Below are positions 20,635 to 36,281 of a stretch of 64,000 nucleotides of DNA, piece by piece. The notes beneath the pieces are model-generated. The model saw nothing but the letters and a program-made list of their open reading frames with translations, was not told where the DNA came from and made no database searches. Source of the DNA: Natronohydrobacter sp. (GTDB taxonomy: Bacteria > Pseudomonadota > Alphaproteobacteria > Rhodobacterales > Rhodobacteraceae). The stretch is from contig JAUVXF010000008.1 of assembly GCA_030603695.1 (NCBI GenBank), forward strand, positions 1-64,000, written 5' to 3'. The first letter of the stretch is position 1. Each line of letters starts with the position of its first letter. Made by a program: the position numbers and the translations under genes.

Positions 20635-21480
20635 GTGCCCATTCATCCATTATCTGCCCAAGCATCTGCTGATGTGATTCACGGCTCGCCGCTTGCATCG
20701 GCGGCAGAGGAGCAGCGCCGGGATACCTTGAAAATGGTGCGCGCGGCACTGGATGAACGGCGCTGTCTGCTGGCCTATCAGCCCGTTGTGCAAGCGCGCA
20801 TGCCCAAACGCGCGGCCTTTTATGAAGGGTTGATCCGCATCATGGATCATACAGGCCGCGTGATTCCGGCCGCCGATTTCATGGATGCTGTCGAAACCAC
20901 GGAAACAGGGCGGCGGATTGACTGTATGTCCCTGGAGATGGGGCTTGCCACGCTGGCGCATGAACCCTCTATCCGGTTGTCCATCAACATGTCCGCGCGC
21001 TCTATCGGCTATCCCGATTGGCTGACAACGCTGGAACGCGGTTTGCGCAATTCGCCCGACATTGCCGAGCGGCTGATTCTGGAAATCACGGAATCCTCTG
21101 CCATGCTGATGCCCGATCTGGTGACTATTTTCATGCAGGACATGCAAGAACGCGGCATATGCTTTGCGTTGGATGATTTTGGCGCGGGCTACACGGCCTT
21201 TCGGTATCTCAAGGAATTCTATTTCGATATTGTAAAGATTGATGGCTCTTTCATCCGTGATATCGGGCAAGAGCCTGACAATCAGGTGCTTGTGCAGGCG
21301 CTTGTCTCCATCGCGCGACATTTCGATATGTTCACAGTGGCGGAAGCTGTGGAAACGGCGGAAGATGCACGCCTGCTGGTTGATCTGGGGGTAGATTGCC
21401 TGCAAGGCTATTACTTCGGTGCCCCGTCCACACAGGCACCGTGGAAAATTTCGCAACTGAAGAACACGAAGGCCGGGTAG
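20635..21480 (+). CDS. Stand-alone EAL-domain protein (probable c-di-GMP phosphodiesterase)
   Basis: A 281-residue cytoplasmic protein consisting of one EAL domain without GGDEF, PAS or membrane segments. The signature motif is YEGLIR (E64), with Gly replacing Ala of EAL. The other conserved residues are present: N118 (INMSA), E150 (LEITES), D180-D181 (DDFGAGYT), K201 (KIDGSF), E237 and E240 (AEAVET) and Q257 (LQGYYFG). Activity is therefore plausible. The start is GTG at 20635 with GGAGGG 6 bases upstream; the frame extends to 20596 without a start signal. No operon partner; convergent with the sugar ABC genes. Confidence 0.88.
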   Translation: MPIHPLSAQASADVIHGSPLASAAEEQRRDTLKMVRAALDERRCLLAYQPVVQARMPKRAAFYEGLIRIMDHTGRVIPAADFMDAVETTETGRRIDCMSLEMGLATLAHEPSIRLSINMSARSIGYPDWLTTLERGLRNSPDIAERLILEITESSAMLMPDLVTIFMQDMQERGICFALDDFGAGYTAFRYLKEFYFDIVKIDGSFIRDIGQEPDNQVLVQALVSIARHFDMFTVAEAVETAEDARLLVDLGVDCLQGYYFGAPSTQAPWKISQLKNTKAG

Positions 21481-21834
21481 GGGCGTTTGGGGCCATAGCG
21501 CAAGCGGTTTGTGGTGGGGCATTCGTCAATATGTTGTTTCGCGAACCTTGCGCGGGCCAGTTGCATTTGTTTGCATCGGGAGGAAACAAAAGCAGGATGG
21601 AGCACCCCCCTCACCAATCCAACGCGCCGCCGCTTGGCCGTCTGCTGATCTGGACAGCCAAAAGGGGGGTTCTAAAGCATGTCGTGCAAAACTGGCAACG
21701 GGTTTTGCACAAAAAGACATCCGGCCCCTTACGGTGAGAGTGCGTCGCGTGACTGCGCCTGAACGCGACACATTCTATTGCCGCGAAACCATGGGTGACA
21801 ACTCTCGTCGCGGCTGGTTTTGGTGTCCGCGGGG
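21481..21834. other. Intergenic region with one palindromic repeat
   Basis: There is no plausible gene in these 354 bases. The frames that exist are short, lack ribosome-binding sites and encode the translated repeat. The only structured element is the palindromic repeat at 21679-21720. The flanking genes converge. Confidence 0.6.
21679..21720. repeat. Intergenic palindromic repeat, copy A
   Basis: An ATGTC...GACAT-bordered element with inner arms GTGCAAAAC (21684-21692) and GTTTTGCAC (21702-21710) around a 9-base loop. It matches the element at 57170-57212 at almost every base; the arm difference (T-A here, C-G there) is compensatory. Similar intergenic palindromes are common in alphaproteobacteria. 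Confidence 0.75.
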
Positions 21835-23349
21835 CTATGCAACCTCTTCGGCCTTGATGCCAGAGATTGCCTGAACCAGATTATCCTCTGTCACTTCGGA
21901 AATGTCGAATTCGCGCATGATGCGGCCATTATACATGGCTACAATCCTGTCAGAGACGCGCAGCACTTCGGGCATTTCCGAACTGATCACAATCACCGCA
22001 TAGCCCTGCGCCGCCAATTCGCGCAAAAGCGTGTGGATTTCAGATTTTGACCCCACATCAATTCCCCGCGTGGGTTCATCCACAATCAACACACGCGGTT
22101 GCATGGACAGCCATTTGCCTATGACAATCTTTTGCTGGTTGCCGCCCGACAGCACGCTTGCCGATTGCTTCCAGCTTGGGGTCTTGATGGCCAGCCTGTC
22201 GCGATACTGATCAAAAATCGCAATTTCCGCACCATTGGAAATGAACGGCCCGCTGGTCAGATCCTGCACTTGCGGCAGGGTCATGTTGTCACGGCAGTTC
22301 ATATGCAGCACAAGCCCTTGTTCCTTGCGGTTTTCGGGAACAAGCGAAATGCCAAGCGCTATGGCCGCGCGCGGGTTGGTGATCTGCACTGGCTGCCCAT
22401 CCACCAAAATCTCGCCCGCGCTGGGGCTGCGCAAGCCGAACAGGGTTTCGGCAATTTCCGTGCGCCCCGCGCCCACCAGCCCGTAAAACCCCACCACTTC
22501 GCCCGCGCGCACCGAAAAGCTGATATCCCTGAACAAGGGCGCGCAGGACAGGTTGCGCACTTCCAGCATGGTCTTGCCAAATTCGGGCGGGGCCTCGTGG
22601 CGTGTCAGATCCAGAGAGCGGCCAATCATCAGGCGCGTCACCTCATCCTCGTTGGTGGCAGCCGTGTCCAGCGTGCCGCGATACTGCCCGTCGCGCAAAA
22701 CCGTGATCCGGTCTGACAGGGTGAAAATCTCATCCATCCGGTGCGAGATATAGACAATCCCCACGCCTTGCGCTTTCAGATCGGTGATAATGTCAAACAA
22801 TACCACTTTTTCCGCATCTGTCAGAGAGGCGGTGGGTTCATCAAACACCACCACGCGGGCATCCACTGTCAGCGCGCGCGCGATTTCCACCATCTGCTGA
22901 TTGGCGATGGACAGGTTTGCAACGGTCACTTCGGCCCGGAAACGGCATTTCAGCCGTTCCAGAATCGCGTTGGATTTGGCGAAAAGCGTTTTCCAATCCA
23001 CCCGGCCCAAGCTTTTGCGCGGCAATTCACCCAGGTAGATATTCTCTGCCGCCGACATTTCCGGCACAAGGCTTAGCTCCTGATGGATCAGCACGACCCC
23101 TTGCGCCTTGGCCTCTATGGGGTTGCGGATGGCAACAGTCTTGCCGCCGATCAGAATGCGCCCCTCATTGGGCTGATACATGCCCGCCAGCACTTTCATC
23201 AGGGTGGATTTTCCGGCCCCGTTCTCGCCCAGAAGGGCATGCACTTCGCCGGGCCGGACATCAAAATCCACCCCATCCAGCGCGCGCACACCGGGAAAGG
23301 TTTTGACAATTCCTTGCAGTTGCAAAGCGGGTGTGTGTGGCATGGTCAT
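21835..23349 (-). CDS. Sugar-type ABC transporter ATPase (MglA/RbsA family)
   Basis: A 504-residue protein with two fused ABC domains, the ATPase of a CUT2-type sugar importer. Domain 1 has Walker A GENGAGKST near residue 39 and Walker B VVFDEPTASL. Domain 2 has the RbsA-like degenerate Walker A GLVGAGRTE, signature LSGGNQQK and Walker B LIVDEPTRGIDVGSK. Its ATG overlaps the upstream permease stop. It works with the two permeases and the binding protein encoded upstream. Substrate is unknown; the neighbouring catabolic operon suggests a sugar or polyol-like compound. Confidence 0.93.
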   Translation of the reverse strand: MTMPHTPALQLQGIVKTFPGVRALDGVDFDVRPGEVHALLGENGAGKSTLMKVLAGMYQPNEGRILIGGKTVAIRNPIEAKAQGVVLIHQELSLVPEMSAAENIYLGELPRKSLGRVDWKTLFAKSNAILERLKCRFRAEVTVANLSIANQQMVEIARALTVDARVVVFDEPTASLTDAEKVVLFDIITDLKAQGVGIVYISHRMDEIFTLSDRITVLRDGQYRGTLDTAATNEDEVTRLMIGRSLDLTRHEAPPEFGKTMLEVRNLSCAPLFRDISFSVRAGEVVGFYGLVGAGRTEIAETLFGLRSPSAGEILVDGQPVQITNPRAAIALGISLVPENRKEQGLVLHMNCRDNMTLPQVQDLTSGPFISNGAEIAIFDQYRDRLAIKTPSWKQSASVLSGGNQQKIVIGKWLSMQPRVLIVDEPTRGIDVGSKSEIHTLLRELAAQGYAVIVISSEMPEVLRVSDRIVAMYNGRIMREFDISEVTEDNLVQAISGIKAEEVA

Positions 23350-24335
23350 AGGCGCAGCCCCCCATTTTGGGTGCGGTTGAAGCGTTTATCAAGGAACAGA
23401 ACCGCAATCAGAATACTGCCAAGGATGACATAGACATAGAACGCCGGAACCTGCATCAGGTTCATCCCGTTGCGCAAAATCCCGATGGCCAGAACACCGC
23501 CCAGCGTGCCGATGATATCGCCCTTGCCGCCTGTCAGTTTGGTTCCGCCCAGCACCACGGCTGTAATCACCCATAACTCATAATCGCGGCCCAGATTGGG
23601 CGTTGCGGCCCCCATCTGGGTGGACAGCAACACGCCCGATAGTGCGGCCAAAAAGCCTATCAGCATGAAATTGATCATCATATGCGGCCCAACCCGGATA
23701 CCCGCATTTACCGCCGCCTCGCGGTTGCCGCCCACGGCATAGGTATTGCGCCCATGCACCGTGCGCGACAGCAGCCAATGCACCGCGATCACCGCCAGCA
23801 CAAAGATGACGGCCAGAACCGGAAATGGCCCCAAAGACATCATGCTGAAATCGGAATAGGCGAAATTGGCAGCGTAGAAAGATTGCTCGCCCGTATAGAC
23901 AAAAACCAGCCCGCGAATGCCCAGCATGGCGCCCAGTGTGACGATAAAGGCATCCACCCCGGTTTTCCACACGATAAAGCCATTGATCGCGCCCATTGCA
24001 ATGCCTGCCAGCAAGGCCAGGCACACGGCTGGCAGAATTTGCCAGTTGCCCCATGTGGCAAAGGCCGCCCAGCTTTGCACATCCACGGCGAACGCTGCCG
24101 CAAGGGCCAGGGTTGCGCCCACTGACAGATCGATATTGCCATTGATCATCACCAGCGTCATCCCCAGCGCGATCAGCCCGATGGTAGAGGTCTGGACAAC
24201 GATGTTCTGCAAATTGCGGGCATCGAAGAAATGATCGGCAGAGAGGCTGAAGAAAACGAAGATCAGCAGCACAAAGCCCCAGATCGGGTTGTGCATCAGC
24301 CAGCGCAGGGCGGGATTGTTGGAAAACATGCTCAT
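23346..24335 (-). CDS. Sugar-type ABC transporter permease (RbsC family), second
   Basis: A 329-residue permease with about eight to ten hydrophobic segments and the RbsC-family motifs LGMTLVMINGNIDLSVG, GxxxGxxNGF (GAINGFIVWKTGVDAFIVTLG) and VLGGTKLTGGKGDIIGTLGG. It follows the first permease by 7 bases and overlaps the ATPase gene by 4, so the two permeases probably form a heterodimer. Confidence 0.92.
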   Translation of the reverse strand: MSMFSNNPALRWLMHNPIWGFVLLIFVFFSLSADHFFDARNLQNIVVQTSTIGLIALGMTLVMINGNIDLSVGATLALAAAFAVDVQSWAAFATWGNWQILPAVCLALLAGIAMGAINGFIVWKTGVDAFIVTLGAMLGIRGLVFVYTGEQSFYAANFAYSDFSMMSLGPFPVLAVIFVLAVIAVHWLLSRTVHGRNTYAVGGNREAAVNAGIRVGPHMMINFMLIGFLAALSGVLLSTQMGAATPNLGRDYELWVITAVVLGGTKLTGGKGDIIGTLGGVLAIGILRNGMNLMQVPAFYVYVILGSILIAVLFLDKRFNRTQNGGLRL

Positions 24336-24342
24336 GCCGCCC

Positions 24343-25317
24343 TCATGCTATTGGTGACAACAGGCGGCCACGTTTGGCGGCCACATCCAGCCACACAGCG
24401 ATGATGATCACCGCCCATGTCACCAGCCATTGGGTGTAATAGGGCTGGCCCATCAGGATCAGGCCGTTCTGGATGAATGCCAGCATCAGCACACCCAAGA
24501 CCGTGCGCAAGATACTGCCAGACCCACCCAAAAGCGATGTGCCCCCCAGAATGACCGCCGCCAGAACCTGCAATTCATAGCCTTGGCCCACATTGTTTTG
24601 CGACCCCATGACGCGGCTGCCAAGGATCATGGCCGCAACCGCCACACAGAGCGCCGAGATGAGATATGTCAGAAACACGATGCGCGAGCGTGGAATGCCA
24701 GAGAAAACCGAGGCAACAGGATTGCCGCCCACGGCATGTACGCGCCTGCCAAAGGCTGTGGTTGTCATCAGGATATGGAAAAACAGCGCAAGGCCCACAA
24801 ACAGGATAATCGGCGTGGCTATGCCCATAACCGCCCCGCGCCCGAATACGCGAAACCATGTCTCGCTTTGATTGGCGATATCCACATTCTGCCCGCCGCT
24901 ATAGATCAGCACCAGCCCTTGAATGACAGACAGCATGCCCAGCGTGACGATAAGCGAATTCAATCGCAATATCCCGATCAGAAAGCCATTGACCGCCCCA
25001 AGGCAAAGCGTTGCCAACACCATCACCGGGACTGCCAGTTCGGGGCCAATTTTATCATGCAGATCAACCACAAGCACGGTTGCAAAAGACAGCATGGAAC
25101 CCACGGATAAATCCAGATTGCCACCGATCACGACTATTGTGACCCCAAGCGCCATGACACCCACAATCGTGGCTTGCCGGAATACCGACATCACGTTCCC
25201 TGTGGTCATGAACCTGTCTGACATGAAGGAAAAAACAATCATGAACAGAATGAACGCAACCAGTATGCCCTGTTTCGCAAGTGTCGGGCCGCCAGCCTTC
25301 AGGCGCGCGATAAGCAT
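24343..25317 (-). CDS. Sugar-type ABC transporter permease (RbsC family), first
   Basis: A 324-residue RbsC-type permease with the motifs LGVTIVVIGGNLDLSVGSM, GAVNGFLIGILRLNSLIVTL and ILGGTSLLGGSGS. The ATG is preceded by GGGGGG. It lies 101 bases after the binding-protein gene, with a strong stem-loop between them, and pairs with the permease encoded at 23346-24335. Confidence 0.92.
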   Translation of the reverse strand: MLIARLKAGGPTLAKQGILVAFILFMIVFSFMSDRFMTTGNVMSVFRQATIVGVMALGVTIVVIGGNLDLSVGSMLSFATVLVVDLHDKIGPELAVPVMVLATLCLGAVNGFLIGILRLNSLIVTLGMLSVIQGLVLIYSGGQNVDIANQSETWFRVFGRGAVMGIATPIILFVGLALFFHILMTTTAFGRRVHAVGGNPVASVFSGIPRSRIVFLTYLISALCVAVAAMILGSRVMGSQNNVGQGYELQVLAAVILGGTSLLGGSGSILRTVLGVLMLAFIQNGLILMGQPYYTQWLVTWAVIIIAVWLDVAAKRGRLLSPIA

Positions 25318-25371
25318 TCTTTTCCCCCCCGGAATATCCCCGTGCGCTCTCCCTCGCGCGGGTAAACAAAG

Positions 25372-25402
25372 GGCTGGGGCGCAACTATCGCGCGCCCCAG
25401 CC
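25372..25402 (-). terminator. Stem-loop/attenuator between binding protein and permease genes
   Basis: GGCTGGGGCGC (25372-25382) and GCGCCCCAGCC (25392-25402) form a perfect 11-bp stem with a 9-base loop. On the minus strand it is followed by CTTTGTTT. It lies 16 bases after the binding-protein stop codon. Partial termination here would make more binding protein than permease. Confidence 0.65.
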
Positions 25403-25418
25403 GTGCAATTCGGCCGCC

Positions 25419-26360
25419 TTAGAATACAGGGCGGTCAAATTCGTCCATATTGTCTTGGGTAATTTTGGGAGTGTCAAAGTAGTTCAGTTTTGGCACATCT
25501 TCGCCCGCCAGCACATCCAGCGCAGTTTGCAGCGCGGCTTCGGCGTCATCCACCGGGGATTGATAGACTGACCCCCAATATTCGCCGCGCGCCATTGCAT
25601 CATAGCCGACCGCGAAATTTGTGGCGCCAATGAACACCATGCCTTCGGCGCGGCCCGCATCTATGGCTGCGTTCAATGCGCCCACGCCCATATTGTCATC
25701 GCCGGAATAGACGCCGTCAATCTGGTCAAAGCGGGTGAGGAATGTTTCCATCGTGCGCTGGGCGCGTTCGCGGTTCCAATCGCCGGGCTGGATATCCAGT
25801 TGGGTGACGCCGGGGCAGAGTTCGGCCAGACGCTCGTCAAAGCCTTGCTGGCGCTCGATTGCAGTTGTGTAGCCGGGCATGCCGGTAATCTGGACAATCT
25901 GCCCTTCGCCGCCCAGGGCATCGCACATCATTTCGGCCGAATAGATACCTTGCTGGATGTTGTTCGGCCCAGAGAATGCGGCGATAAAATCCATCCCTGC
26001 TTCGGCAATGTTAGAATTCGTCACAACAACCGGAATGCCTGCATTGAACGCGTTACGCACTGCGGGAACCAGCGCTTGCCCATCGGTGGGCCAAATGATG
26101 ATCGCATCCACCTGTTGCTGGATCAAATCCTGCATCTGGCTGATCTGGCGCGCAACATCGCCGCCCGCATCCAGCACAATCACCTCTACATTCGGGTTGG
26201 CATCGGCTGCGGCGATAAAAGCTTGTTCATAGGTTGTCTGATAGCTGTCAATGCCGACATTGTTTTGCGTAATCCCAATACGCACAGTTTCGGCAGAACC
26301 CGCGCTTGCAAGCGCAACTGTGCCGCAGCTGGCCAGCAGAAATTTCATCGTTTTTGTCAT
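25419..26360 (-). CDS. Sugar-type ABC transporter substrate-binding protein (Peripla_BP_4 type)
   Basis: A 313-residue periplasmic binding protein of the ribose-binding class. Residues 1-23 form a signal peptide (ending AGSAE). The mature part opens TVRIGITQNNVGIDSYQTTY and has the DAxxxWPTDGQALVPAV and NAGIPVVVTNS strands of the family. The start at 26360 was chosen because GGGAGGAAG precedes it; the open frame extends to 26519 across the promoter. It is divergent from the SBP-wHTH regulator gene, and the ligand is unknown. Confidence 0.93.
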   Translation of the reverse strand: MTKTMKFLLASCGTVALASAGSAETVRIGITQNNVGIDSYQTTYEQAFIAAADANPNVEVIVLDAGGDVARQISQMQDLIQQQVDAIIIWPTDGQALVPAVRNAFNAGIPVVVTNSNIAEAGMDFIAAFSGPNNIQQGIYSAEMMCDALGGEGQIVQITGMPGYTTAIERQQGFDERLAELCPGVTQLDIQPGDWNRERAQRTMETFLTRFDQIDGVYSGDDNMGVGALNAAIDAGRAEGMVFIGATNFAVGYDAMARGEYWGSVYQSPVDDAEAALQTALDVLAGEDVPKLNYFDTPKITQDNMDEFDRPVF

Positions 26361-26482
26361 GGTCTTCCTCCCATTGATCATGTCGTGCTGCACGAATGTC
26401 GGAATCGGGTCATGCCCTAACATAGCGTGTGCGGCAACATCGCCATGTTTGCCGCCACGGCACGCAGACAATACCAGTATTT

Positions 26483-26518
26483 TGTTCAAAATGAATATTG
26501 GGATAATCATTTTGAACA
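26483..26518. promoter_or_regulatory. Perfect 12-bp inverted repeat, probable operator of the divergent regulator
   Basis: TGTTCAAAATGA (26483-26494) and TCATTTTGAACA (26507-26518) are exact inverted copies separated by 12 bases. They lie in the AT-rich stretch between the binding-protein gene and the regulator gene. A partial extra copy (TTTTGA) follows at about 26519. The spacing puts the two arms two helical turns apart, as expected for a dimeric winged-helix repressor or activator. Confidence 0.65.
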
Positions 26519-26569
26519 TTTTGAGGATATAATCCCCCCGCGGCTTTGGACATTCTGAAAGGGCAAATC

Positions 26570-28381
26570 ATGAGCGCAGGGCGCAACGCAGGGCCAGAGG
26601 CCAGCATACAGAAAGAAAGCAAAGACGTGCGGATGGAGAATATCCAAAACGAAGATTTCTCTCGCGTTCTGGGGCGCGGCGCAGGCCGCAACCCAGAGGC
26701 CGCGACCAGTCTTTCTGCCGCGCTTACCTTTCTGGATGCCGTTTCCGCCGAATTGGACACAGTGTTGGAGATTGGCGAGCCTAATCCGCATCTGAACATG
26801 GTGTCAGCCCTGCTGCGCGCACATATGGGCGGCAAGGTTGTAACGGCCACGATGCTGATTTCGGCCTCTGGCGTGCCCTATGCAACCGCGCGGCGCAAGC
26901 TGCAAGATTTGCTGGATCGTGGGTTGATCGAGCAGCGGGTAAAAACACGCTCTGGCCGCTCTTTCTCGCTGCACCCGACAGAGCGCCTGATGGAAAACTG
27001 GCGCCAATTTGCCGAACGCATCTTGCGCCTTGGGGCAGAGGCTACGGGCAATACGGCAATCAGCGGGCAGGAATATTATTATGGCGCGTCTTATGTGCCG
27101 GCCAGCCATTCGCTTGCGCCGCCGCAGGTGCTGCCAACGCCTTTGCAGCTTGGGGGCGGTTTGCGGGTGCTGGTGCATGGCGATCCCACGTTCATGGTTA
27201 TGGAAAACCTCAAGCGTCAGTTTGAACAGATCATCGGCACGAATATCAGCCAGCGCGCCTTTTCCATAGACAGGCTGCGTTCTGAGGCGCTGCGCAATGC
27301 TGAACGCCGTTTCAGCAAATATGACATCATCGCGGTAGATCTGCCCTGGATCGGCGAATTTGCCGAAAAAGGCGTGCTTATGGCGCTGGATGAATGTCTG
27401 GATACCGCGCGCCTTGACACCCCGGATTTTCACACGGCAGGCTGGATGGCCGCGCATTGGGGCGGGCGGCCTTATGGTGTGCCCAGCCAGACAACCCCGG
27501 AATTGCTGTTTTACCGCAAAGACCTCTTTGCCGAAGCAGGGCTGGAGCCGCCAGACACCACGGCAAAAGTCATAGAGGCCGCGCGCCATTTCCACGCCCC
27601 CCAGCGCGGGCGCTACGGGATTGCCTGGAATGCCGCGCGCGGCACGGCCCTTGGCCATCAGTTCTTGATGACATGCGCCGATTTCGGCCAGCCGATTGTG
27701 AACCTGCACGCCATTGCCGGGGGGTTTGATGCCGATACCGCCAATCGGCGCGATATCGTGCCCACCATTGATACACCGCAGGCGCTGGAAGCATGCGACT
27801 ATCTGCTCACCCTGATGTCCTATTCCCCGCCCGATATCTTGTCTATGTCCTGGTATGAACGTGTGCGCCCCTATGCGGCGGGCAAGATACCCATGGCCTA
27901 TGGCTACACCCTGCTGGCCCCGTATTTCGAGCGTGACCCCCATTCGCCCGCCAATGGCAACACGGGCTATCTGCCCCATCCGGCCGGGCCAAAGGGCCGC
28001 CCTGTGGCGCCTGTGGGGGGCTATGTTCTGGGCATTCCCGCCAATCTGGCCCCGGAACGGCGGGCGGCGGCGGCAGAAGCGCTGATCGCCTTCACTTCGC
28101 CCGAAGCGCAGAAGCTGTATGTGCTCAATGGCAGCCGGACAGCGCCCCGCTACTCTGTCGGGGCCGACCCGGAGGTGCGCCAGACATCCCCCATATTCGA
28201 GGCCGTGGACGGCATGTCCCTGCGCGACGAGTTGCAATATTGGCCACGCCCGCCATTGCCCCGGATCGCAGAGATATTCGAGATTTGCGGGCAGGAAATT
28301 CACGACATGTTGCGCGGTGTTCAAAGCCCGCGCGCAGCATTGCGAAGCGCTCAGGCAAGGGCCGAGCGCGCGCTAAATTAA
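26570..28381 (+). CDS. Transcription regulator: N-terminal winged helix fused to a cytoplasmic solute-binding-protein domain
   Basis: A 603-residue protein with no signal peptide. Residues about 75-130 read as a winged helix (LLRAHMGGKVVTATMLISAS, then PYATARRKLQDLLDRGLIEQ). From about residue 180 to the end it resembles extracellular solute-binding proteins of the MalE class (VLVHGDPTFMVMENLKRQFE, then KYDIIAVDLPWIGEFAEKG, PYGVPSQTTPELLFYRKDLF, AYWxxxx-like C-lobe and TSPEAQKLYV). So the effector domain is a binding-protein fold used inside the cell as a sensor. The ATG at 26570 has GAAAGGG upstream; a TTG at 26546 and an ATG at 26630 are alternatives. It divides the importer from the catabolic operon and probably controls both. 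Confidence 0.85.
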   Translation: MSAGRNAGPEASIQKESKDVRMENIQNEDFSRVLGRGAGRNPEAATSLSAALTFLDAVSAELDTVLEIGEPNPHLNMVSALLRAHMGGKVVTATMLISASGVPYATARRKLQDLLDRGLIEQRVKTRSGRSFSLHPTERLMENWRQFAERILRLGAEATGNTAISGQEYYYGASYVPASHSLAPPQVLPTPLQLGGGLRVLVHGDPTFMVMENLKRQFEQIIGTNISQRAFSIDRLRSEALRNAERRFSKYDIIAVDLPWIGEFAEKGVLMALDECLDTARLDTPDFHTAGWMAAHWGGRPYGVPSQTTPELLFYRKDLFAEAGLEPPDTTAKVIEAARHFHAPQRGRYGIAWNAARGTALGHQFLMTCADFGQPIVNLHAIAGGFDADTANRRDIVPTIDTPQALEACDYLLTLMSYSPPDILSMSWYERVRPYAAGKIPMAYGYTLLAPYFERDPHSPANGNTGYLPHPAGPKGRPVAPVGGYVLGIPANLAPERRAAAAEALIAFTSPEAQKLYVLNGSRTAPRYSVGADPEVRQTSPIFEAVDGMSLRDELQYWPRPPLPRIAEIFEICGQEIHDMLRGVQSPRAALRSAQARAERALN

Positions 28382-28404
28382 CCAATGCGCGAGAGGAGGA
28401 CGCC

Positions 28405-29214
28405 ATGGATACCACCCGCCTGAAAGGCAAAAACATTCTGATAACAGGGGCGGCACAGGGAATGGGGGCGCAAAATGCCCGTCATTTTGCAGCCCAGGGC
28501 GCCAATGTCTGCTTGGGTGATGTGAATGTGGATGGCGTGAACGAAGTGGCCGCAGAGATCAACGCGGCAGGCAATGGGCGGGCAATTGCCGTCAAGCTGA
28601 ATGTCACCTCACGCGCAGAGAATGCCGCGGCTGTTGCTGCGTGTGTAGAGGCGTTCGGTTCCCTCAATGTGGCGCTGCTGAATGCGGGTGTGAACAAGCC
28701 GCGCATGTTCATGGATATTGACGAAGATAACTGGGACATGATCATGAACATCAACGCCAAGGGGGTGTTGCTGGGCATGCAGGAAGCTGCGCGCCAGATG
28801 ATCGCCCAAGGCCCGATGGAAGGCCATCCCTATAAAATTATCCCTGTGGGTTCTATCGTATCGCGCACTGCGTTTTTGGATGTGATCCCGTATTCCTGTT
28901 CCAAATATGCCGTGCTTGCCATGATCATTGGCGGCGCAAAGGCGCTGTGGGAACATAAGATCACCGTCAATGGCTATGGCCCCGGCGTTGTGCGCACCGA
29001 ATTGTGGGAACAGCTGGACAGGGATTTGGTGAAAATCGGGATGTTCGAGAAAGAAGGCCAGTCCATGGATCATCTGGCCAGCACCATGATTACCATGAAG
29101 CGCTACAGCTACCCCGAAGATGTGCAGGGCACAGCCGCTTTTCTGTGCTCGGATGACAGCGATTACATGACAGGCCAGCTTATCATGATCGATGGCGGCA
29201 TGATCATGCAATAG
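28405..29214 (+). CDS. SDR-family NAD(P)-dependent oxidoreductase
   Basis: A 269-residue classical short-chain dehydrogenase. The cofactor motif TGAAQGMG is at residues 14-21, the NAG motif reads LLNAGVNKP, and the active site has Ser in VGSIVSRTAF and Tyr/Lys in YSCSK. The C-terminal motif YMTGQLIMIDGG is normal for the family. The ATG at 28405 is preceded by GAGAGGAGGA. It is the first enzyme gene after the SBP-wHTH regulator and probably oxidises a hydroxyl group of the imported compound. Specific substrate unknown. Confidence 0.92.
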   Translation: MDTTRLKGKNILITGAAQGMGAQNARHFAAQGANVCLGDVNVDGVNEVAAEINAAGNGRAIAVKLNVTSRAENAAAVAACVEAFGSLNVALLNAGVNKPRMFMDIDEDNWDMIMNINAKGVLLGMQEAARQMIAQGPMEGHPYKIIPVGSIVSRTAFLDVIPYSCSKYAVLAMIIGGAKALWEHKITVNGYGPGVVRTELWEQLDRDLVKIGMFEKEGQSMDHLASTMITMKRYSYPEDVQGTAAFLCSDDSDYMTGQLIMIDGGMIMQ

Positions 29215-29297
29215 GCGCCGCGCGCGCCCCGTTTTTGCCCATTCATCCCCCCAATAACCCCCCGGCGGTTTCCCCGCCGCGCGAGAGGATTTTTCAA

Positions 29298-30596
29298 ATG
29301 TCACGAGCCTTGATGCCCAACCTTCTAACCCCGCAGGATTTGCAGCCTAACTGGCGCTGGGAAGGGCGCTTGCCTGCATGGGGCCATACATCGGTGGATT
29401 TTGAACGCCGGATAGACCATGACAGATTGCGCCGCTACCGTCTGGCGCGCACCCGGCAGGCGCTGCAAGCCTCTCAGGCGGGCACGCTGCTTTTGTTCGA
29501 TGTGAACAATATCCGCTATGTTTCTGCCACCAAGATCGGCGAGTGGGAGCGCGACAAGATGTGTCGCTTCTGCCTGCTGACAGGCGATGATGCCCCCTAT
29601 GTCTGGGATTTCGGATCGGCGGCGATGCATCACAAGAAATTCAGCGACTGGCTGGTGCCCGACCATTGCCGCGCCGGTGTGGTGGGGATGCGCGGTACGA
29701 TCCCGCCCGAATTTGGCCTGATGCGCCAATATGCCAAGGAAATCGCGGGCCTTATCCGCGATGCGGGCATGGGTGATATGCCTGTGGGCGTGGATTACGC
29801 CGAAACCGCCATGTTCCATGCGCTGCAAGAAGAGGGGCTGAATGTGGTTGATGGCCAGCAAATCATGCTGGCCGCGCGCGAGATCAAGAACTGGGATGAA
29901 ATCCAGCTGCTGACACAGGCGGCCAGCATGGTCGATGGTGTCTATCATATGATCTACGAACAGTTGAAACCGGGCATTCGTGAAAATGACATTGTCGCCC
30001 TGGCCAACAAGATGCTGTATGAAATGGGCAGCGATGATGTGGAAGCCATCAACGCCATTTCGGGGGAGCGGTGCAATCCTCACCCCCACAACTTCACCGA
30101 CCGCTATTTTCGCCCCGGTGATCAGGCATTTTTCGATATCCTGCAAAGCTATCAGGGCTATCGCACCTGCTATTACCGCACCTTCAACATTGGGCGTGCC
30201 ACCCCTGCCCAGAACGATGCCTATGTGAAAGCGCGCGAATGGATAGATGCCTCTATCGCCATGATCAAACCCGGCGTGAGCACGGACAAGGTTGCCGAAG
30301 TCTGGCCCACGGCACAGGAAATCGGCTTCCCCGATGAACAAACCGCCTTCGGGTTGCAATTTGGGCATGGGCTGGGGCTGGCGCTGCACGAGCGGCCCAT
30401 CATCAGCCGCGCCATCAGTCTGGAACACCCGATGGAGATCAAGACAGGCATGGTCTTTGCGCTGGAAACCTATTGCCCTGCCGCAGACGGCTATTCCGCC
30501 GCGCGGATAGAGGAAGAGGTGGTTGTCACCGAAACGGGCTGCGAGGTGATCAGCCTGTTCCCGGCAGAAGAACTGCCCATCGCCAACCGTTACTGA
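29298..30596 (+). CDS. M24-family metallohydrolase-like protein (Xaa-Pro peptidase/DddP relative) with Asp-to-Cys change
   Basis: A 432-residue protein with a creatinase/prolidase N-terminal domain (LLFDVNNIRYVS at 65-76) and a pita-bread M24 domain. Candidate metal ligands are D280 (FFDILQ), H357 (FGHGLGL), E390 (ALETY) and E405 (ARIEEE). Where prolidases have the second Asp (GYxxDxTRT) this protein reads GYRTCYYRT, so Cys291 takes its place. Related roseobacter M24 proteins include the DMSP lyase DddP, but the match is to the fold rather than to that activity. The ATG at 29298 was chosen; the frame extends upstream to 29235 without a start signal. Its role in the operon is unknown. Confidence 0.85.
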   Translation: MSRALMPNLLTPQDLQPNWRWEGRLPAWGHTSVDFERRIDHDRLRRYRLARTRQALQASQAGTLLLFDVNNIRYVSATKIGEWERDKMCRFCLLTGDDAPYVWDFGSAAMHHKKFSDWLVPDHCRAGVVGMRGTIPPEFGLMRQYAKEIAGLIRDAGMGDMPVGVDYAETAMFHALQEEGLNVVDGQQIMLAAREIKNWDEIQLLTQAASMVDGVYHMIYEQLKPGIRENDIVALANKMLYEMGSDDVEAINAISGERCNPHPHNFTDRYFRPGDQAFFDILQSYQGYRTCYYRTFNIGRATPAQNDAYVKAREWIDASIAMIKPGVSTDKVAEVWPTAQEIGFPDEQTAFGLQFGHGLGLALHERPIISRAISLEHPMEIKTGMVFALETYCPAADGYSAARIEEEVVVTETGCEVISLFPAEELPIANRY

Positions 30597-30605
30597 CCGC
30601 GCGTG

Positions 30606-30639
30606 GCGCGCACCCTGCGCCCAGTTGCAGGGTGCGTGC
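30606..30639 (+). other. Stem-loop between the M24 gene and the E1 alpha gene
   Basis: CGCACCCTGC (30609-30618) and GCAGGGTGCG (30627-30636) pair perfectly around an 8-base loop, and the stem extends by about three further pairs including one wobble. No T tract follows, so it looks like an intercistronic processing or stabilising hairpin rather than a terminator. Confidence 0.5.
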
Positions 30640-30671
30640 GTGCACGCAGCACCGCCGCAAAGGATAGGATC

Positions 30672-31649
30672 ATGGCCAAGGCCAAGACGAATACCGAAGA
30701 TTATCTGCAAATGTATCGCCAGATGGTGCGGATACGCACTTTTGAGGATACGGCCAACCAGCTTTACCTTTCGGCCAAGATGCCGGGCCTGACGCATATG
30801 TATTCGGGCGAAGAGGCTGTTGCGGTGGGCATTTGCGAGGCGCTGCGCGACAGCGATCATATCACCTCTACGCATCGTGGGCATGGGCATTGCGTGGCCA
30901 AGGGGGCAGAGTTCAAGCAGATGTTTTGCGAACTCTTGGGCAAGGCCGAGGGCTATTGCCGGGGCAAGGGCGGCTCTATGCATATCGCCGATCAAAGCCA
31001 CGGCAATCTGGGCGCGAATGCGATTGTGGGCGGCTCTATGGGCATTGCCACCGGATCGGCGTTGCGCGCGAAGCTGCAAGGCCGTGACGATGTGACGGTT
31101 TGTTTCTTTGGCGATGGCGCAACGGCGCAAGGGTTGATGTATGAGGTAATGAACATGGCAGCGCTGTGGAAGCTGCCTGTCATTTATGCCTGCGAAAACA
31201 ACGGCTATTCGGAATATACCAAGACCGAGGAAATCGCCGCCGGTTCCATCACTGCGCGGGCCGAAGCCTTCGGGATAGAGGCACATCAGGTGGATGGTCA
31301 GGATGTGCTGGCCGTCAATGCGCTGGCCGCGAAACTTGTGGCGCGGGCGCGCAAGGGGGAGGGGCCGTTCTTCATAGAGTTGATGACCTATCGCTATCAC
31401 GGCCATCATGTGGGCGATATCAACCGCGAATATTACCGCTCCAAGGCCGAAGAGAAGGATTGGCGCGAAAATCGTGATCCGATCATCCGGTTCCGGGCGC
31501 ATCTGGTGGCCGAGGGCATTGCCTCTGAAGAGGATCTGGACGCGCTGAATGCCCAGATCGCGGCGGATGCGGCAGAGGCTGTCGCCTATGCCGAGGCGGC
31601 GGCCTACCCGCCCGCCGAAGAAGTTGACATGCATGTATTTGCGGCCTGA
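30672..31649 (+). CDS. 2-oxo-acid/acetoin-type dehydrogenase E1 component, alpha subunit
   Basis: A 325-residue thiamine-diphosphate enzyme subunit (AcoA/PdhA family). The ThDP motif runs from GDGA at 147-150 to NN at 176-177, and the family motifs THRGHGHCVAKG and GSMHIADQSHGNLGANAIVGG are clear. With the beta subunit (next gene) it would decarboxylate or cleave its substrate and transfer an acyl group to lipoate. AcoA and PdhA are hard to tell apart by eye; an acetoin-like substrate is suggested by the catabolic context. The start follows GGATAGGATC. Confidence 0.93.
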   Translation: MAKAKTNTEDYLQMYRQMVRIRTFEDTANQLYLSAKMPGLTHMYSGEEAVAVGICEALRDSDHITSTHRGHGHCVAKGAEFKQMFCELLGKAEGYCRGKGGSMHIADQSHGNLGANAIVGGSMGIATGSALRAKLQGRDDVTVCFFGDGATAQGLMYEVMNMAALWKLPVIYACENNGYSEYTKTEEIAAGSITARAEAFGIEAHQVDGQDVLAVNALAAKLVARARKGEGPFFIELMTYRYHGHHVGDINREYYRSKAEEKDWRENRDPIIRFRAHLVAEGIASEEDLDALNAQIAADAAEAVAYAEAAAYPPAEEVDMHVFAA

Positions 31650-31662
31650 GGAGAGCGAGACA

Positions 31663-32661
31663 ATGCGCGAGATTACCCTATCCCAAGCCGTGAACGAGGC
31701 GATTGCCGAAGAAATGCGCCGTGATCCGACGGTATTTCTGATGGGCGAGGATGTGGCCGAGGCGGGCACGCCCTTCAAGGTGCTTGCTGGTCTGGTGGAG
31801 GAATTTGGCACAGACCGCGTGATCGATACCCCCATATCAGAGCCGGGCTTTATGGGCATGGCCGTGGGCGCGGCCATGACAGGCGCGCGCCCGATTGTGG
31901 ATCTGATGTTTGGTGATTTCATCTTTCTGATCATGGATCAGCTGTGCAATCAGGCGGCTAAAACGCATTACATGTCGGGCGGCAAGCTGACTGTGCCCTT
32001 GGTGCTGCGCACCAATCTGGGGGCCACGCGCCGCTCTGCTGCGCAGCACAGCCAAAGCTTGCAAGCCTTGGTGGCCCATATTCCGGGGTTGAAAGTGGCC
32101 ATGCCCTCTTCGGCCTATGAGGCCAAGGGCCTGATGAAAACCGCCATCCGCGACAATAACCCGGTGGTGATCTTTGAAGACAAGTTGATGTATCAGGACA
32201 AGGCCCCTGTGCCCGAAGAGGAATATCTTATTCCTTTTGGCGTGGCCAATGTGAAGCGCGAGGGGCGCGACATCACGCTTATTGGCACGTCTTCCATGGT
32301 GCAGGTGGCTGAAAAGGCGGCGGAGATTCTGGCGCGCGAGGGGATCAGCGCCGAAGTGATCGACCCGCGCACCATTGTTCCGCTGGATGAGAAAACCCTG
32401 ATCGAGAGTGTGAAAAAGACCAGCCGCGCGATTGTGATTGATGAAGGCCATCAAAGCTATGGGGTGACAGCCGAAATCGCCAGCCGCCTGAATGAAAAAG
32501 CCTTCTACCATCTGGATGCGCCGGTTCTGCGCATGGGGGCGATGGATGTGCCTGTGCCGTTCAGCCCAGCGCTGGAAGATCTGACAGTGCCCACCCCCGA
32601 AGCGGTGGCCGAAAAAGCGCGCATGCTCTGCGCGGGGGAGATGATCCATGCTGCGGAATGA
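31663..32661 (+). CDS. 2-oxo-acid/acetoin-type dehydrogenase E1 component, beta subunit
   Basis: A 332-residue transketolase-like beta subunit. It has the typical MGEDVAEAGTPFKV and TPISEPGFMGMAVGAAMTGARP motifs near the N-terminus and the C-terminal IDEGHQSYG plus DAPVLRMGAMDVPVPFSP. It is separated from the alpha gene by 13 bases (GAGGAGAG) and overlaps the lipoyl-protein gene by 14. The ATG at 31663 was chosen; the open frame extends upstream inside the alpha gene. It forms an alpha2beta2 E1 with the preceding product. Confidence 0.94.
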   Translation: MREITLSQAVNEAIAEEMRRDPTVFLMGEDVAEAGTPFKVLAGLVEEFGTDRVIDTPISEPGFMGMAVGAAMTGARPIVDLMFGDFIFLIMDQLCNQAAKTHYMSGGKLTVPLVLRTNLGATRRSAAQHSQSLQALVAHIPGLKVAMPSSAYEAKGLMKTAIRDNNPVVIFEDKLMYQDKAPVPEEEYLIPFGVANVKREGRDITLIGTSSMVQVAEKAAEILAREGISAEVIDPRTIVPLDEKTLIESVKKTSRAIVIDEGHQSYGVTAEIASRLNEKAFYHLDAPVLRMGAMDVPVPFSPALEDLTVPTPEAVAEKARMLCAGEMIHAAE

Positions 32662-33952
32662 AACCTCTGGTTTCGGGGCGCATGAGGTGACAATGCCCCA
32701 GCTTGGCATGGCGCAGGATGCGGGAAAGATCGTCTCATGGCTCAAGCGCCCCGGCGAGAAGGTCGCCAAGGGTGATCCTTTGTTCGAGGTGGAAACCGAC
32801 AAGGCCACGATGGAGGTAGAGGCGCAGGCCAGCGGCTATCTGACCCATGTGTCGGCTGCGCAGGGCGAGGATGTGCCTGTTGGGCAGGTGATTGCGCGCA
32901 TCTCCGAGAGCGCGGATGAGGATACGCCATCCCCGGCGCCGCCCTCTGCCCCGGCCAAGGCCCTGCCAGAGGGCAAACAGATCACCATGCCGCAACTGGG
33001 CATGGCGCAAGATAGCGGTGTGCTGGTGACGTGGCTGGTGGAACTGGGCGCGCAGATTGGCCCCGATGATCTGTTGTTCGAGGTGGAAACCGACAAGGCC
33101 ACGATGGATGTGCCCGCCGGGGTCAGCGGCTGGTTGGCCGCCACGCTGGCACAGGCGGGCGAGGATGTGCCTGTGGGGCAGGCGGTGGCCGTAATCTCTG
33201 CCGAAAAGCCTGAAAACCCGGTTGCGCGCGCTGCTGCACTGGCCCCATCTAAGCCAGAGCGCAAGCCAGAGCCAGAACTCAAACCTGAGCCAAAGGCAAA
33301 GCCCAGCCCCGCCCCGGCCGTGGCCGCCGCGCCCGCAGTAGCGGCCAGCGGGCGCATCCTTGCTTCGCCCAAGCTGCGCCGCGCGGCGCAGTTGGACGGG
33401 CTGGATCTGGCGCGCCTTGTTGCGGCGGGGCAGCCGCAACCCTATCACATGCGCGATCTGACGCAGTTGCAGCAACTCTCATCCGCCGCCACCGCGCCCG
33501 CACCAGCCGCAACCGCGCTGCGCATGCAGGCCGAATGCGCGCAAGATGGCTTTGCCGAATTTGCCGACTGGGCCACTGATACGATGGGCCTGACAGATTC
33601 CGATGCCTTGTTAGCGGGATTGGCGGGGGCCAGCCTTGGGCGCGGGGCAACCATTGCCGTGGCGCGCTTTGGCCAGCGCCGCCTGTATGCGGTGCCCCAA
33701 ACCCGCCGCCTGTCCGAGGTGGCCAAAACCGATGCCGCGCCTGATCTGTTGTTGCGCGATCTGCGCGCAACGCCGCTGCGCCATGTCGCAATCGGGGCGG
33801 AAGATGTGCCTGTCCTGACAGTGACCGCGCACGGGGCGGGGCTGGCGGTCACGCTGGAATGCAGCGCGGCGCAGATGGGCGCAGAGGATGCGCTTGCGCT
33901 GGTCAGTGAATTTGCAGGGCGACTAAGCGATCCGCGCCGCCACCTTCTTTAA
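32648..33952 (+). CDS. Two-lipoyl-domain E2-like protein with degenerate acyltransferase tail
   Basis: A 434-residue protein. Lipoyl domain 1 spans about residues 12-86 with Lys52 in ETDKAT; lipoyl domain 2 about 111-185 with Lys150 in ETDKAT. A Pro/Ala/Lys/Glu-rich linker follows at 186-235, and a peripheral-subunit-binding domain at 236-272 (ASPKLRRAAQLDGLDLARL). The last 140 residues align loosely with an E2 catalytic domain (LLLRDLRATPL, VTLECSAAQMGAEDALALV) but lack the catalytic His: CSAAQMGA stands where HRVINGA is expected. So it carries lipoate and binds E1/E3, while catalysis is probably supplied by the separate E2 core at 35406. Confidence 0.88.
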   Translation: MLRNETSGFGAHEVTMPQLGMAQDAGKIVSWLKRPGEKVAKGDPLFEVETDKATMEVEAQASGYLTHVSAAQGEDVPVGQVIARISESADEDTPSPAPPSAPAKALPEGKQITMPQLGMAQDSGVLVTWLVELGAQIGPDDLLFEVETDKATMDVPAGVSGWLAATLAQAGEDVPVGQAVAVISAEKPENPVARAAALAPSKPERKPEPELKPEPKAKPSPAPAVAAAPAVAASGRILASPKLRRAAQLDGLDLARLVAAGQPQPYHMRDLTQLQQLSSAATAPAPAATALRMQAECAQDGFAEFADWATDTMGLTDSDALLAGLAGASLGRGATIAVARFGQRRLYAVPQTRRLSEVAKTDAAPDLLLRDLRATPLRHVAIGAEDVPVLTVTAHGAGLAVTLECSAAQMGAEDALALVSEFAGRLSDPRRHLL

Positions 33953-33966
33953 TCGCAGAGGTTCTT

Positions 33967-35394
33967 ATGGATTATCCGACTGATCTTTACATCAACGGCG
34001 CATGGCACAAAACGGCCACGCGGTTTGACGTCATCAACCCTGCAACCGAAGAGGTGCTGGCCTCTGTCGCCTCTGCCGATAGTGCCGATGCCGATGCCGC
34101 GCTGGATGCGGCACAGGCCGCAATGGCCGATTGGGCCGCGCGCACCCCGCGCCAGCGTTCCGAAGTGCTGCGCCGCGCGTGGGAGTTGATGACCGCCCGG
34201 CTGGAAGATTTCGCCCGCCTGATCACGCTGGAAAACGGCAAGGCCCGCAGCGATGCACTGGGCGAGGCCACATATGCCGCCGAATTCTTCCGCTGGTTTG
34301 CCGAAGAGGCCGTGCGCGCGGATGGCCTGATCACCCATGCCCCCGCCTCTGGGGCGCGGATCATTGTGCAGCACAAGCCCGCAGGGCTGGCCGTGCTGAT
34401 TACGCCGTGGAATTACCCTGCCGCAATGGGCACGCGCAAGATCGCACCCGCGCTTGCGGCAGGCTGCGCGGTGATCATCAAGCCTGCATCGGAAACACCG
34501 CTGACAATGCTGGCGCTGATGCCGCTTCTGGAAGAAGCGGGCGTGCCGCCGGGGCTGGTGAATGTGCTGCCCTCAAAGCGCACAGGTGCGCTGGTGGATC
34601 ATATGTTGCATGATCCCCGTGTGCGGGTGGTCAGTTTTACAGGCTCTACCGGGGTGGGGCGCGGATTGCTGAAATCCGCCGCCGATCAGGTGCTGAAACC
34701 CGCGATGGAACTGGGCGGCAATGCGCCTGTGATTGTCTTTGATGATGCCGATATGGATACAGCGATTGAAGGCACGATGCTGGCCAAAATGCGCAATCTG
34801 GGAGAGGCCTGTACAGCCGCCAACCGCATTTATGTGCATGAGGACATCGCGCCGGAATTCACCCGCCGCCTGTCGGCGGCCATGTCGGCGCTGAGGCTTG
34901 GGGATGGCACTGATCCAAGCGTGGATGTCGGCCCGCTGGTCAATGCGGCCACGCGCGACAAGGTGGCCGCCTTTGTGGCCGATGCCGTGGCCAAAGGCGC
35001 GGTGCTGGAATGCGGTGGGGTTGTGCCAGAGGGGAAGGGGTTTTTCTACCCGCCCACAGTGCTTTCAAACGTGCCGGAAACTGCCGATTGCGTGCAGGAT
35101 GAAATTTTTGGCCCTGTGGCCGCTATCCAGACATTCACCGATCAGGAAGATGTCATCGCCCGCGCCAATGCCACGGAATATGGGTTGGTGGCCTATGTGT
35201 TCAGCGGGGATTTCAAGCGCGCGCTGCAGGTCTGCGAGCGGCTGGAATATGGCATGGTGGGGCTGAACCGGGGGCTTGTCAGCGATCCTGCCGCGCCCTT
35301 TGGCGGCACCAAGCAATCCGGGCTTGGGCGCGAGGGCGGGCATGAAGGGATGCTGGAATTCATGGAAACGCAATACATCTCGGCCAGCTGGTGA
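33967..35394 (+). CDS. NAD(P)-dependent aldehyde dehydrogenase (succinate-semialdehyde dehydrogenase-like)
   Basis: A 475-residue ALDH-superfamily enzyme. Key residues are present: Asn149 in PWNYP, Glu248 in ELGGNAP, Cys282 in GEACTAANR, and the cofactor loop FTGSTGVGR. The overall pattern (ENGKAR near 90, SDPAAPFGGTKQSGLGREGG near the end) resembles GabD-type succinate-semialdehyde dehydrogenases, but these are hard to separate from glycolaldehyde or lactaldehyde dehydrogenases. It lies between the two E2 genes and may oxidise acetaldehyde or another aldehyde released by the E1 step. Confidence 0.93.
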   Translation: MDYPTDLYINGAWHKTATRFDVINPATEEVLASVASADSADADAALDAAQAAMADWAARTPRQRSEVLRRAWELMTARLEDFARLITLENGKARSDALGEATYAAEFFRWFAEEAVRADGLITHAPASGARIIVQHKPAGLAVLITPWNYPAAMGTRKIAPALAAGCAVIIKPASETPLTMLALMPLLEEAGVPPGLVNVLPSKRTGALVDHMLHDPRVRVVSFTGSTGVGRGLLKSAADQVLKPAMELGGNAPVIVFDDADMDTAIEGTMLAKMRNLGEACTAANRIYVHEDIAPEFTRRLSAAMSALRLGDGTDPSVDVGPLVNAATRDKVAAFVADAVAKGAVLECGGVVPEGKGFFYPPTVLSNVPETADCVQDEIFGPVAAIQTFTDQEDVIARANATEYGLVAYVFSGDFKRALQVCERLEYGMVGLNRGLVSDPAAPFGGTKQSGLGREGGHEGMLEFMETQYISASW

Positions 35395-35405
35395 AAGGGG
35401 CAATC

Positions 35406-36281
35406 ATGACAGAGGTAATCGCAAGCCCCAGCACCCGCCGCAAGGCGCTGGAACAAGGGGTGGATATAGACGCGCTGGCCCAAAAACTGGGCCGCAGCAC
35501 CCTTGGCCCGGAAGATTTGCGCAGCCCCAGCCCTGCCGCGCCTGCGGGCGATACAAGCTATTGGGATGTGGATCACGCGCGGCATGGCCCGGTCACAACA
35601 GAACCGACAAGCCGCTTTGCCCAAGTCGCTGCCCGCAATCTGGGGGCGGCCAATGCGATAATTCCGCAAGTCACCCATCATGACCGCGCCGATATTTCGG
35701 CAATAGACGGCCTGCGCAACGCATGGCGCGCAGAGGCACAGGCGCGCGGGGTGAAGCTGACAGCGCTGGCCTTTCACGTTATGGCGCTGGCGCGTTGCCT
35801 GCGCGATTTCCCGCGTTTCAATGCCTCGCTCTCGGCCGATGGCAAAACCCTGATCCTGAAGGATTATGTTCATATCGGGGTCGCGGTGGATACACCGCAT
35901 GGGCTGATGGTTCCTGTCATCCGCAATGCAGACAGGCTGGGCCTGTGGCAGATATCAGAGGCCATCACCGATCTTGCCGCCCGCGCACAGGCGCGCAAAC
36001 TGGCCCCCGATGATATGGGCGGCGCGTCCATGACACTCAGCAATCTGGGCGGCATTGGCGGGCTGGGCTTTACCCCCATCGTCAACCCGCCGGAACTGGC
36101 CATCCTTGGGATCACGCGCACTGAAACGGTAACTGTCTGGAACGGCGATACCCCCCGCCCTGTGCCCATGGTGCCGCTTGATCTAAGCTATGACCACCGC
36201 GTGATAAACGGCGCCGATGCGGCGCGCTTTATGGCCCATCTCTGCGCGCTGCTTGCAGAGCCTCGGCGCATGATGATCTAA
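35406..36281 (+). CDS. Dihydrolipoamide acyltransferase core (E2) without lipoyl domain
   Basis: A 291-residue protein made of a peripheral-subunit-binding domain (residues about 6-38, ASPSTRRKALEQGVDIDAL) and a complete E2 catalytic domain. The active-site motif reads DHRVINGADAARF, the His/Asn arrangement known from Azotobacter vinelandii E2p, and the second motif is TLSNLGGIGGLGFTPIVNPP. It has no lipoyl domain, so it must act on lipoyl groups carried by another protein, most likely the one encoded at 32648. The ATG at 35406 follows AAAGGGG; a GTG at 35391 is an alternative. Last gene of the operon. Confidence 0.92.
   Translation: MTEVIASPSTRRKALEQGVDIDALAQKLGRSTLGPEDLRSPSPAAPAGDTSYWDVDHARHGPVTTEPTSRFAQVAARNLGAANAIIPQVTHHDRADISAIDGLRNAWRAEAQARGVKLTALAFHVMALARCLRDFPRFNASLSADGKTLILKDYVHIGVAVDTPHGLMVPVIRNADRLGLWQISEAITDLAARAQARKLAPDDMGGASMTLSNLGGIGGLGFTPIVNPPELAILGITRTETVTVWNGDTPRPVPMVPLDLSYDHRVINGADAARFMAHLCALLAEPRRMMI

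Follow-up and report, generated by a model that had tools for sequence, protein, structure and literature searches.

The regulators of the LacI/GalR family join a transport-type binding fold to a helix-turn-helix (HTH) and act on palindromic operators, as the regulator described here appears to do. LysR-type regulators combine a winged helix with a type-II-like binding fold, in which the effector domain spans about 200 residues and belongs to another Pfam family, and fusions of GntR with SBP_1 domains occur in Firmicutes. SgrR and DsvR of E. coli and V. cholerae carry an N-terminal HTH and a C-terminal solute-binding domain, SBP_bac_5, and control themselves together with carbohydrate-related genes (PMC13060122). 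Our study concerns a regulator encoded in a 64,000-nucleotide stretch of Natronohydrobacter sp. DNA (the window), in which a domain of the MalE class stands in the sensor's place. We consider it likely, from sequence comparison and structure models, that this protein is a ligand-released repressor with a MalE-class sensor, which would bind paired palindromes and control both an importer and a catabolic operon. A sequence-only reading of the same DNA had held that sensors of this fold are rarely described; our searches of the open-access PMC literature showed no regulator with a MalE-class domain, and the terms 'SBP' and 'solute-binding' are absent from the available part of PMC5882156, but a precedent of the solute-binding-protein type does exist in SgrR (PMC13060122).

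The open reading frame at 26570-28381 bears out the 603-residue protein of the earlier reading, and its parts are laid out as follows.

26570 to 28381, forward strand: regulator coding sequence (ATG at 26570, stop at 28381, 603 aa), winged helix plus family-1 solute-binding domain
26570 to 26707, forward strand: N-terminal extension, residues 1-46, pLDDT below 50 in the AF2 model; contains the candidate site op4
26696 to 27046, forward strand: winged-helix region with flanking helices, residues 43-159 (AF2 secondary structure, profiles, sub-threshold Pfam HTH matches)
within the winged-helix region, forward strand: predicted recognition helix YATARRKLQDLLD (104-116) and wing KTRSGRSFSLHP, from the AF2 model
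27161 to 28369, forward strand: family-1 (MalE-class) solute-binding domain, residues 198-600 (PF01547, 5iai profile, model superposition)

The C-terminal region matches SBP_bac_1 in Pfam (PF01547, E 2.4e-23, 84.1 bits against a gathering score of 26), and SBP_bac_8 also lies above its cut-off there. In a phmmer search of solved structures, 5iai_A (31-420) aligns with regulator residues 198-600 (E 4.2e-29), and a profile built from 21 family members places 5iai best (E 2.5e-54), followed by TMBP 1eu8 (1e-40) and MalE 6dtq (2.1e-32); the same profile matches 4rya, named as a sorbitol binding protein, at E 3.8e-31. The binding domain is poor in a full-length AF2 model made from 53 sequences (mean pLDDT 61.6; Foldseek TM 0.30/0.41). 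Modelled alone from 79 sequences, residues 186-603 reach a pLDDT of 86.7 and a pTM of 0.87, and Foldseek superposes them on 5iai with TM 0.86/0.90 (rmsd 2.6) and on TMBP 1eu8 with TM 0.83/0.85; the two-lobed fold of the MalE class, on which the earlier reading had staked its proposal in advance, is thus what the model returns. The domain appears to have been modelled in a rather closed state: Foldseek scores it at TMq 0.82 against maltose-bound MalE3 and at 0.73 against the apo form.

At the N-terminus the Pfam matches lie below threshold, with HTH_IclR at 20.3 bits (cut-off 22), TrmB at 19.3 (25.6) and MarR_2 at 18.8 (27); of 25 members of the regulator family, 11 match MarR_2 at E <= 0.01. 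The family profile finds TubR 6tey in the PDB (E 9.6e-4) and, more weakly, the MarR regulator 5eri (E 0.026). The winged helix that had been claimed for this segment is seen in the full-length AF2 model, which is of fair quality in this part and where residues 73-159 follow the order H-H-H-E-E-H with block pLDDT of 54-92. The claim that the protein lacks a signal peptide also agrees with our analysis, in which hydropathy alone, a crude measure, shows none in residues 1-60: the highest 11-residue hydrophobicity is 1.71, at residue 48 in what AF2 models as a helix, and the importer binding protein reaches 2.05 at its residue 7. Two of 21 family members have maxima of 1.95 and 1.97.

A search with residues 1-194 as query found matches in 38 of 147 relatives, which include 27 of the 37 same-genus genomes listed (own genome included), and in 11 of 385 class members (own included). 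Reading frames were checked at 38 loci (L003-L039 and L043, with L003 being the window, and the weak matches L040-L042 and L044 set aside); 36 of these fused frames are open for at least 564 codons and closed, and the other two run off their contigs. Across the phylum, an N-terminal profile matches 25 of 398 genomes at 1e-6: six matches are strong (E 1.8e-46 or better), one is weak and lies in a 589-codon frame (G116), and the remaining 18 are weak, lie in frames of 176-473 codons and probably represent other winged-helix proteins. By tblastn, at least 555 of 593 pattern stretches from named genome contigs encode relatives, counted as stretches rather than distinct genes and not all established as fusions. 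The best 80 of these all match from residue 54 or earlier to residue 591 or later, in keeping with the expectation that orthologues would retain the winged helix, and come from genera that include Roseinatronobacter, Natronohydrobacter, Nioella, Stappia, Oricola, Martelella, Hoeflea, Ruegeria and Marivita. Among 13 stretches from viral contigs there was no relative.

Plasmid records yielded 44 matches to the regulator, 34 of them covering at least 80% of the query. The label 'extracellular solute-binding protein' is attached to 26 of these 34, and the others comprise two with other labels, four with no feature at that place and two unannotated records. Such labels would fit an ordinary transport binding protein with a chance or unrelated repeat upstream, a reading that we find scarcely credible: the crude hydropathy measure sees no signal segment, the winged-helix part is present in orthologues, the permeases of the adjacent importer are of the CUT2 kind (BPD_transp_2), and a pair of candidate operators described below lies upstream in 78 of the best 80 loci.

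The regulator gene diverges from a ribose-type (CUT2) importer and heads an operon of catabolic genes.

21835 to 23349, reverse strand: importer double ABC ATPase, CUT2 type
23346 to 24335 and 24343 to 25317, reverse strand: importer permeases (BPD_transp_2), CUT2 type
25419 to 26360, reverse strand: importer binding protein, RbsB-type (Peripla_BP_4), with a signal-peptide-like start and likely ATG at 26360; divergent partner of the regulator
28411 to 29214, forward strand: SDR oxidoreductase, 29 bp after the regulator, like acetoin reductase and 2,3-butanediol or polyol dehydrogenase
29292 to 30596, forward strand: M24-family enzyme, DddP-like
30672 to 36281, forward strand: E1 alpha, E1 beta, lipoyl protein, aldehyde dehydrogenase (ALDH) and E2 catalytic protein

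Gaps within the catabolic operon range from -14 to 77 bp at the assumed starts, and the closest relatives of the SDR are acetoin reductase and the butanediol and sorbitol dehydrogenases. The locus is flanked by an EAL-domain gene on one side and a cyanate lyase on the other; the sole BPD_transp_1 gene scanned (37769-38602) lies past the catabolic operon, by the cyanate lyase. Scans of 19 proteins of the locus and its flanks (10 and 9) showed no other regulator. Synteny was scored in the best 80 loci as a tblastn homologue on the expected side and strand, wherever the contig reached far enough. On the importer side it holds for the binding protein in 73/73 loci and for the permeases and the ATPase in 72/72 each; on the catabolic side for the SDR in 78/78, M24 in 68/69, E1 alpha in 60/66, E1 beta in 57/63, the lipoyl protein in 56/62, ALDH in 54/60 and E2 in 23/26.

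Some features of the neighbouring genes deserve mention in their own right. Among the locus proteins tested, conservation is highest in the M24 enzyme (median 90% identity), and 19 of the 21 copies examined have GYRTCYYRTF at the RTF motif. A canonical metal-binding Asp thus appears to have given way to Cys, and the enzyme may not be a peptidase. The E2 is split into a protein with two lipoyl domains (32648-33952) and a separate catalytic domain (35406-36281), with the aldehyde dehydrogenase gene between them. Beyond E2 the window has cyanate lyase on the other strand, where Phaeobacter pGal_E78 (L162) has lpdA. A second SDR lies between the importer binding protein and the first permease in L055-L063 and L162, and L162 also has genes for a ThuA-domain protein and an NAD(P)-dependent oxidoreductase after the ATPase; the window has neither arrangement.

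Further away, the family is found in other company. The regulators of three class relatives with 1.4-Mb genomes (L037-L039) are 32-33% identical to that of the window; their neighbours resemble the window's SDR at 63-66%, M24 at 65-67% and E1 and ALDH at 40-45% identity, and their importer genes are merely 24-34% alike. Distant members adjoin intradiol dioxygenases, maleylacetate reductases, Gfo/Idh/MocA enzymes and CUT1 or CUT2 importers, which makes it seem, on gene context, that this regulator type is used for several pathways. Plasmid-borne relatives (L163-L167) lie next to intradiol dioxygenase and maleylacetate reductase genes or to Gfo/Idh/MocA and sugar-phosphate isomerase genes. These surroundings bear on whether the binding domain senses a small molecule at all, or acts instead as a scaffold or docks on the importer ATPase or permease and so reports transport activity. 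The domain is of a class unlike that of the importer's binding protein, which deprives the sensor reading of an argument from a cognate ligand, but we regard the scaffold or docking role as unlikely: the fold is kept, with 82% mean column identity in an alignment of members 71-91% identical to the window, and the variety of pathways and importer classes beside distant members is that expected of a ligand sensor.

Capture of the sensor from the neighbouring importer was considered and rejected at the window locus, where the two binding proteins belong to different classes. At two distant loci with CUT1 receptors, the regulators are 43% and 29% identical to the window's across about 550 residues, winged helix included, and the CUT1 receptors themselves compare with the window regulator at 24% over 347 residues in one case and through a 48-residue match only in the other.

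The intergenic region between the importer and the regulator holds an inverted repeat, TGTTCAAAATGA / TCATTTTGAACA (26483-26518), that the sequence-only reading had matched to the regulator. It is indeed perfect, with a 12-base spacer, and no second match with three mismatches or fewer occurs in the window (0 in 100 shuffles). As an operator, the perfect 12-bp repeat was rejected: a perfect pair of arms occurs in just one of 38 upstream regions, that of the window. A symmetric site is kept among orthologues, as had been supposed, but the conserved unit differs from the one described, and the repeat is better read, on this comparison, as two 15-bp palindromes of the form TRTYCAnnnTGRAYA placed 21 bp apart. 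The earlier description was also incomplete in missing two further candidate sites, op3 and op4.

26483 to 26497, unstranded: op1 TGTTCAAAATGAATA, exact TRTYCAnnnTGRAYA, across the importer promoter's inferred -35 region
26504 to 26518, unstranded: op2 TAATCATTTTGAACA, one mismatch, 21 bp from op1, across the regulator promoter's inferred -35 region
26538 to 26552, unstranded: op3 half-site, 34 bp from op2, with TGGACA as its right half and a degenerate left half
26641 to 26655, unstranded: op4 TATCCAAAACGAAGA, two mismatches, in regulator codons 24-29, 137 bp from op2

Of these, op3 overlaps the inferred transcription start. Sites as loose as op4 number 25 in the window against 12.7 expected, so that op4 is not significant alone; because loose sites are not rare, its case rests on its conserved position. 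Another operator-like site with one mismatch lies inside the M24 gene (29494-29508). The source genome contains four exact sites, op1 included. With one mismatch allowed the number rises to 71, where a reversed control gives 23; among the genome sites listed, op1 and op2 form the only pair 21 bp apart. Elsewhere in this genome (C31:11903-11941) two one-mismatch sites lie 24 bp apart, possibly as operators of another regulator. The excess over the control hints that some sites have other users, and one might suppose that the palindromes as a whole belong to another, unlinked regulator. We judge this very improbable: the pair travels with the regulator gene across genera, and the 19 proteins scanned in and around the locus offer no other candidate.

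The consensus was drawn up on a first orthologue set of 37 upstream regions (window included; L029, a contig-edge fragment, dropped), in which pairs of sites spaced by 21, 34 and 55 bp occur 31, 22 and 22 times, against 0.09, 0.17 and 0.12 in shuffles. The 21-bp pair is found at 31 of these 37 loci and is absent from L025, L036, L037-L039 and L043. In the best 80 orthologue loci, 16 of which have upstream DNA in common with the first, consensus-defining set, it occurs in 79 (mean of 0.27 in shuffles; L149 lacks it), and at a tighter cut-off it lies upstream in 78 and nowhere in the other 1,213,763 bases of these loci, which are mostly coding. All but one of the 79 pairs (78) are distinct 36-mers. 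The orthologue sequences are related, not independent, and the site counts should not be read as probabilities. The pair counts (79/80 and 78/80) do not depend on the column consensus of the upstream regions, which was anchored on motif hits and has the conservation of its op1 and op2 columns partly built in.

The spacing of 34 bp that separates op2 from op3 recurs in 43 of the best 80 loci. A site resembling op4 (up to two mismatches) follows op2 in 55 of 80 sequences (79 best loci and the window), 82-86 bp after it in 16 and 134-139 bp after it in 39, against 0.09 and 0.06 in shuffles for the two classes. In the named loci, all 54 such sites lie within the open frame of the regulator and 51 follow an in-frame ATG, counted at assumed rather than established start codons. 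Conservation of the peptide as the whole explanation of op4 is weakened by the two position classes, which differ in frame and peptide (the 38 hits of the +137 class are all in phase 2 and the 16 of the +84 class all in phase 1); within a single class, the peptide may still be the cause.

The motif thins out with distance. Each of the three relatives with 1.4-Mb genomes has one exact TATTCAnnnTGAATA, and shuffling their upstream DNA yields an exact site in 0.06-0.08% of cases; with up to two mismatches allowed, shuffles match the number observed in 21.5, 4.5 and 7%. Over 15 distant members, a site with no or one mismatch is present in four (L037-L039 and L163), two have a two-mismatch site only (L043 and L072), nine have no site, and none has the 21-bp pair.

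Two inferred promoters frame the operator pair.

26468 to 26473, reverse strand: inferred -10 TATTGT of the importer operon; close-group consensus ACaAtAC
26528 to 26533, forward strand: inferred -10 TATAAT of the regulator and catabolic operon, no -35 match; close-group consensus TATgAtC

The consensus of the 18 closest sequences shows both -10 boxes, which are faint in the other 62. A sigma-70 scan returned no promoter pair at its threshold and no -35 match at either inferred promoter, which leaves the promoter positions and the sign of regulation on a weak footing. With starts taken about 7 bp downstream of the inferred -10 boxes, the centre of op2 falls at about -29 of the regulator promoter and that of op1 at about -29 of the importer promoter, a symmetric arrangement. 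SgrR is an activator of its targets, and a ligand-dependent activator working here on the same operators, where it would replace the missing -35 elements and use op3 for autorepression, is possible but in our judgement doubtful. The lack of a -35 match at both promoters speaks for it, but activator sites of class II usually lie farther upstream than the roughly 29 bp between the site centres and the inferred starts, and the symmetric overlap of the sites with both inferred promoters suits repression. The activator also has a parallel in SgrR, which controls its targets and represses itself (PMC13060122).

Under the repressor model that we favour, a MarR/IclR-like winged helix would bind the 15-bp palindromes, and the MalE-class domain fused to it would serve as the ligand sensor of a cytoplasmic one-component regulator. 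Dimers would sit side by side on op1 and op2, 21 bp or two helical turns apart, and their occupancy would block both divergent promoters, whose -35 regions the sites cover. Ligand would close the two lobes, alter the dimer and free the promoters, with op3 and op4 adding autoregulation or looping. From the position of the operators and the synteny we infer that the regulator probably controls both units, as the sequence-only reading had proposed.

The ligand would be a sugar- or polyol-like compound brought in by the importer, or an intermediate derived from it. That importer and regulator share a ligand is an assumption, because the importer binding protein (RbsB-type) and the sensor (MalE-type) differ in fold class; the different folds imply either that two unrelated pockets recognise one compound or that the regulator reads an intermediate. 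Where the earlier reading had the protein sensing the imported compound, it may thus read this compound or an intermediate. The nearest solved relatives of the sensor bind sugars or alditols; 5iai and the importer relatives 5hko/4rs3/4rsm are polyol complexes, with ligands that the structure titles and names do not state. A polyol- or acyloin-like compound would suit the SDR, the acetoin-dehydrogenase-like E1/E2 and the ALDH. The locus marks a conserved catabolic pathway, and the purified sensor domain would offer a direct route to its substrate.

We also lean, if only slightly, towards a wider interpretation, in which the protein would belong to a large family of cytoplasmic MalE-fold regulators, concealed in databases under the name 'extracellular solute-binding proteins', that has spread with many different catabolic loci and senses intracellular sugars, polyols or aromatics, with silencing by a phased array in this branch. 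Such an array would have two sites separated by two turns, one more at the start and another within the coding sequence about 8 or 13 turns off, and could shut down importer and pathway jointly through cooperative binding or looping. If this is true, many annotated transport receptors are regulators, and for marine and soil Alphaproteobacteria both the count of transporters and the regulon maps would change. The MalE class is widely used in biosensor design; here nature appears to have joined such a domain to a DNA-binding head, and the operator is defined.

The observation is real; the protein's design is ordinary as a principle and new in the parts used, and it is widespread and mislabelled. 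The closest solved relatives of its sensor domain, 5iai (Arad_9887) and TMBP 1eu8, are both receptors for ABC transport; unlike them, the window domain is joined to a winged helix, with no export signal seen. The regulator differs from the LacI/GalR family, which combines a Type I (RbsB) fold with the LacI helix, in pairing the MalE-class fold with a winged helix, and Pfam scans list neither LacI nor LysR in it. Judged by its domains, SgrR (HTH with SBP_bac_5) is the closest known design, and the window regulator is not a member of that family: neither SgrR_N nor SBP_bac_5 is listed in its Pfam scans, and its sensor is SBP_bac_1 (MalE class) in place of the SBP_bac_5 of SgrR and DsvR. SgrR works with the SgrS RNA, whereas an Rfam scan of 21000-37000 gave no match at the gathering score, SgrS included. 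Unlike SgrR and DsvR, the window regulator has a pair of operators 21 bp apart at the junction of importer and catabolism.
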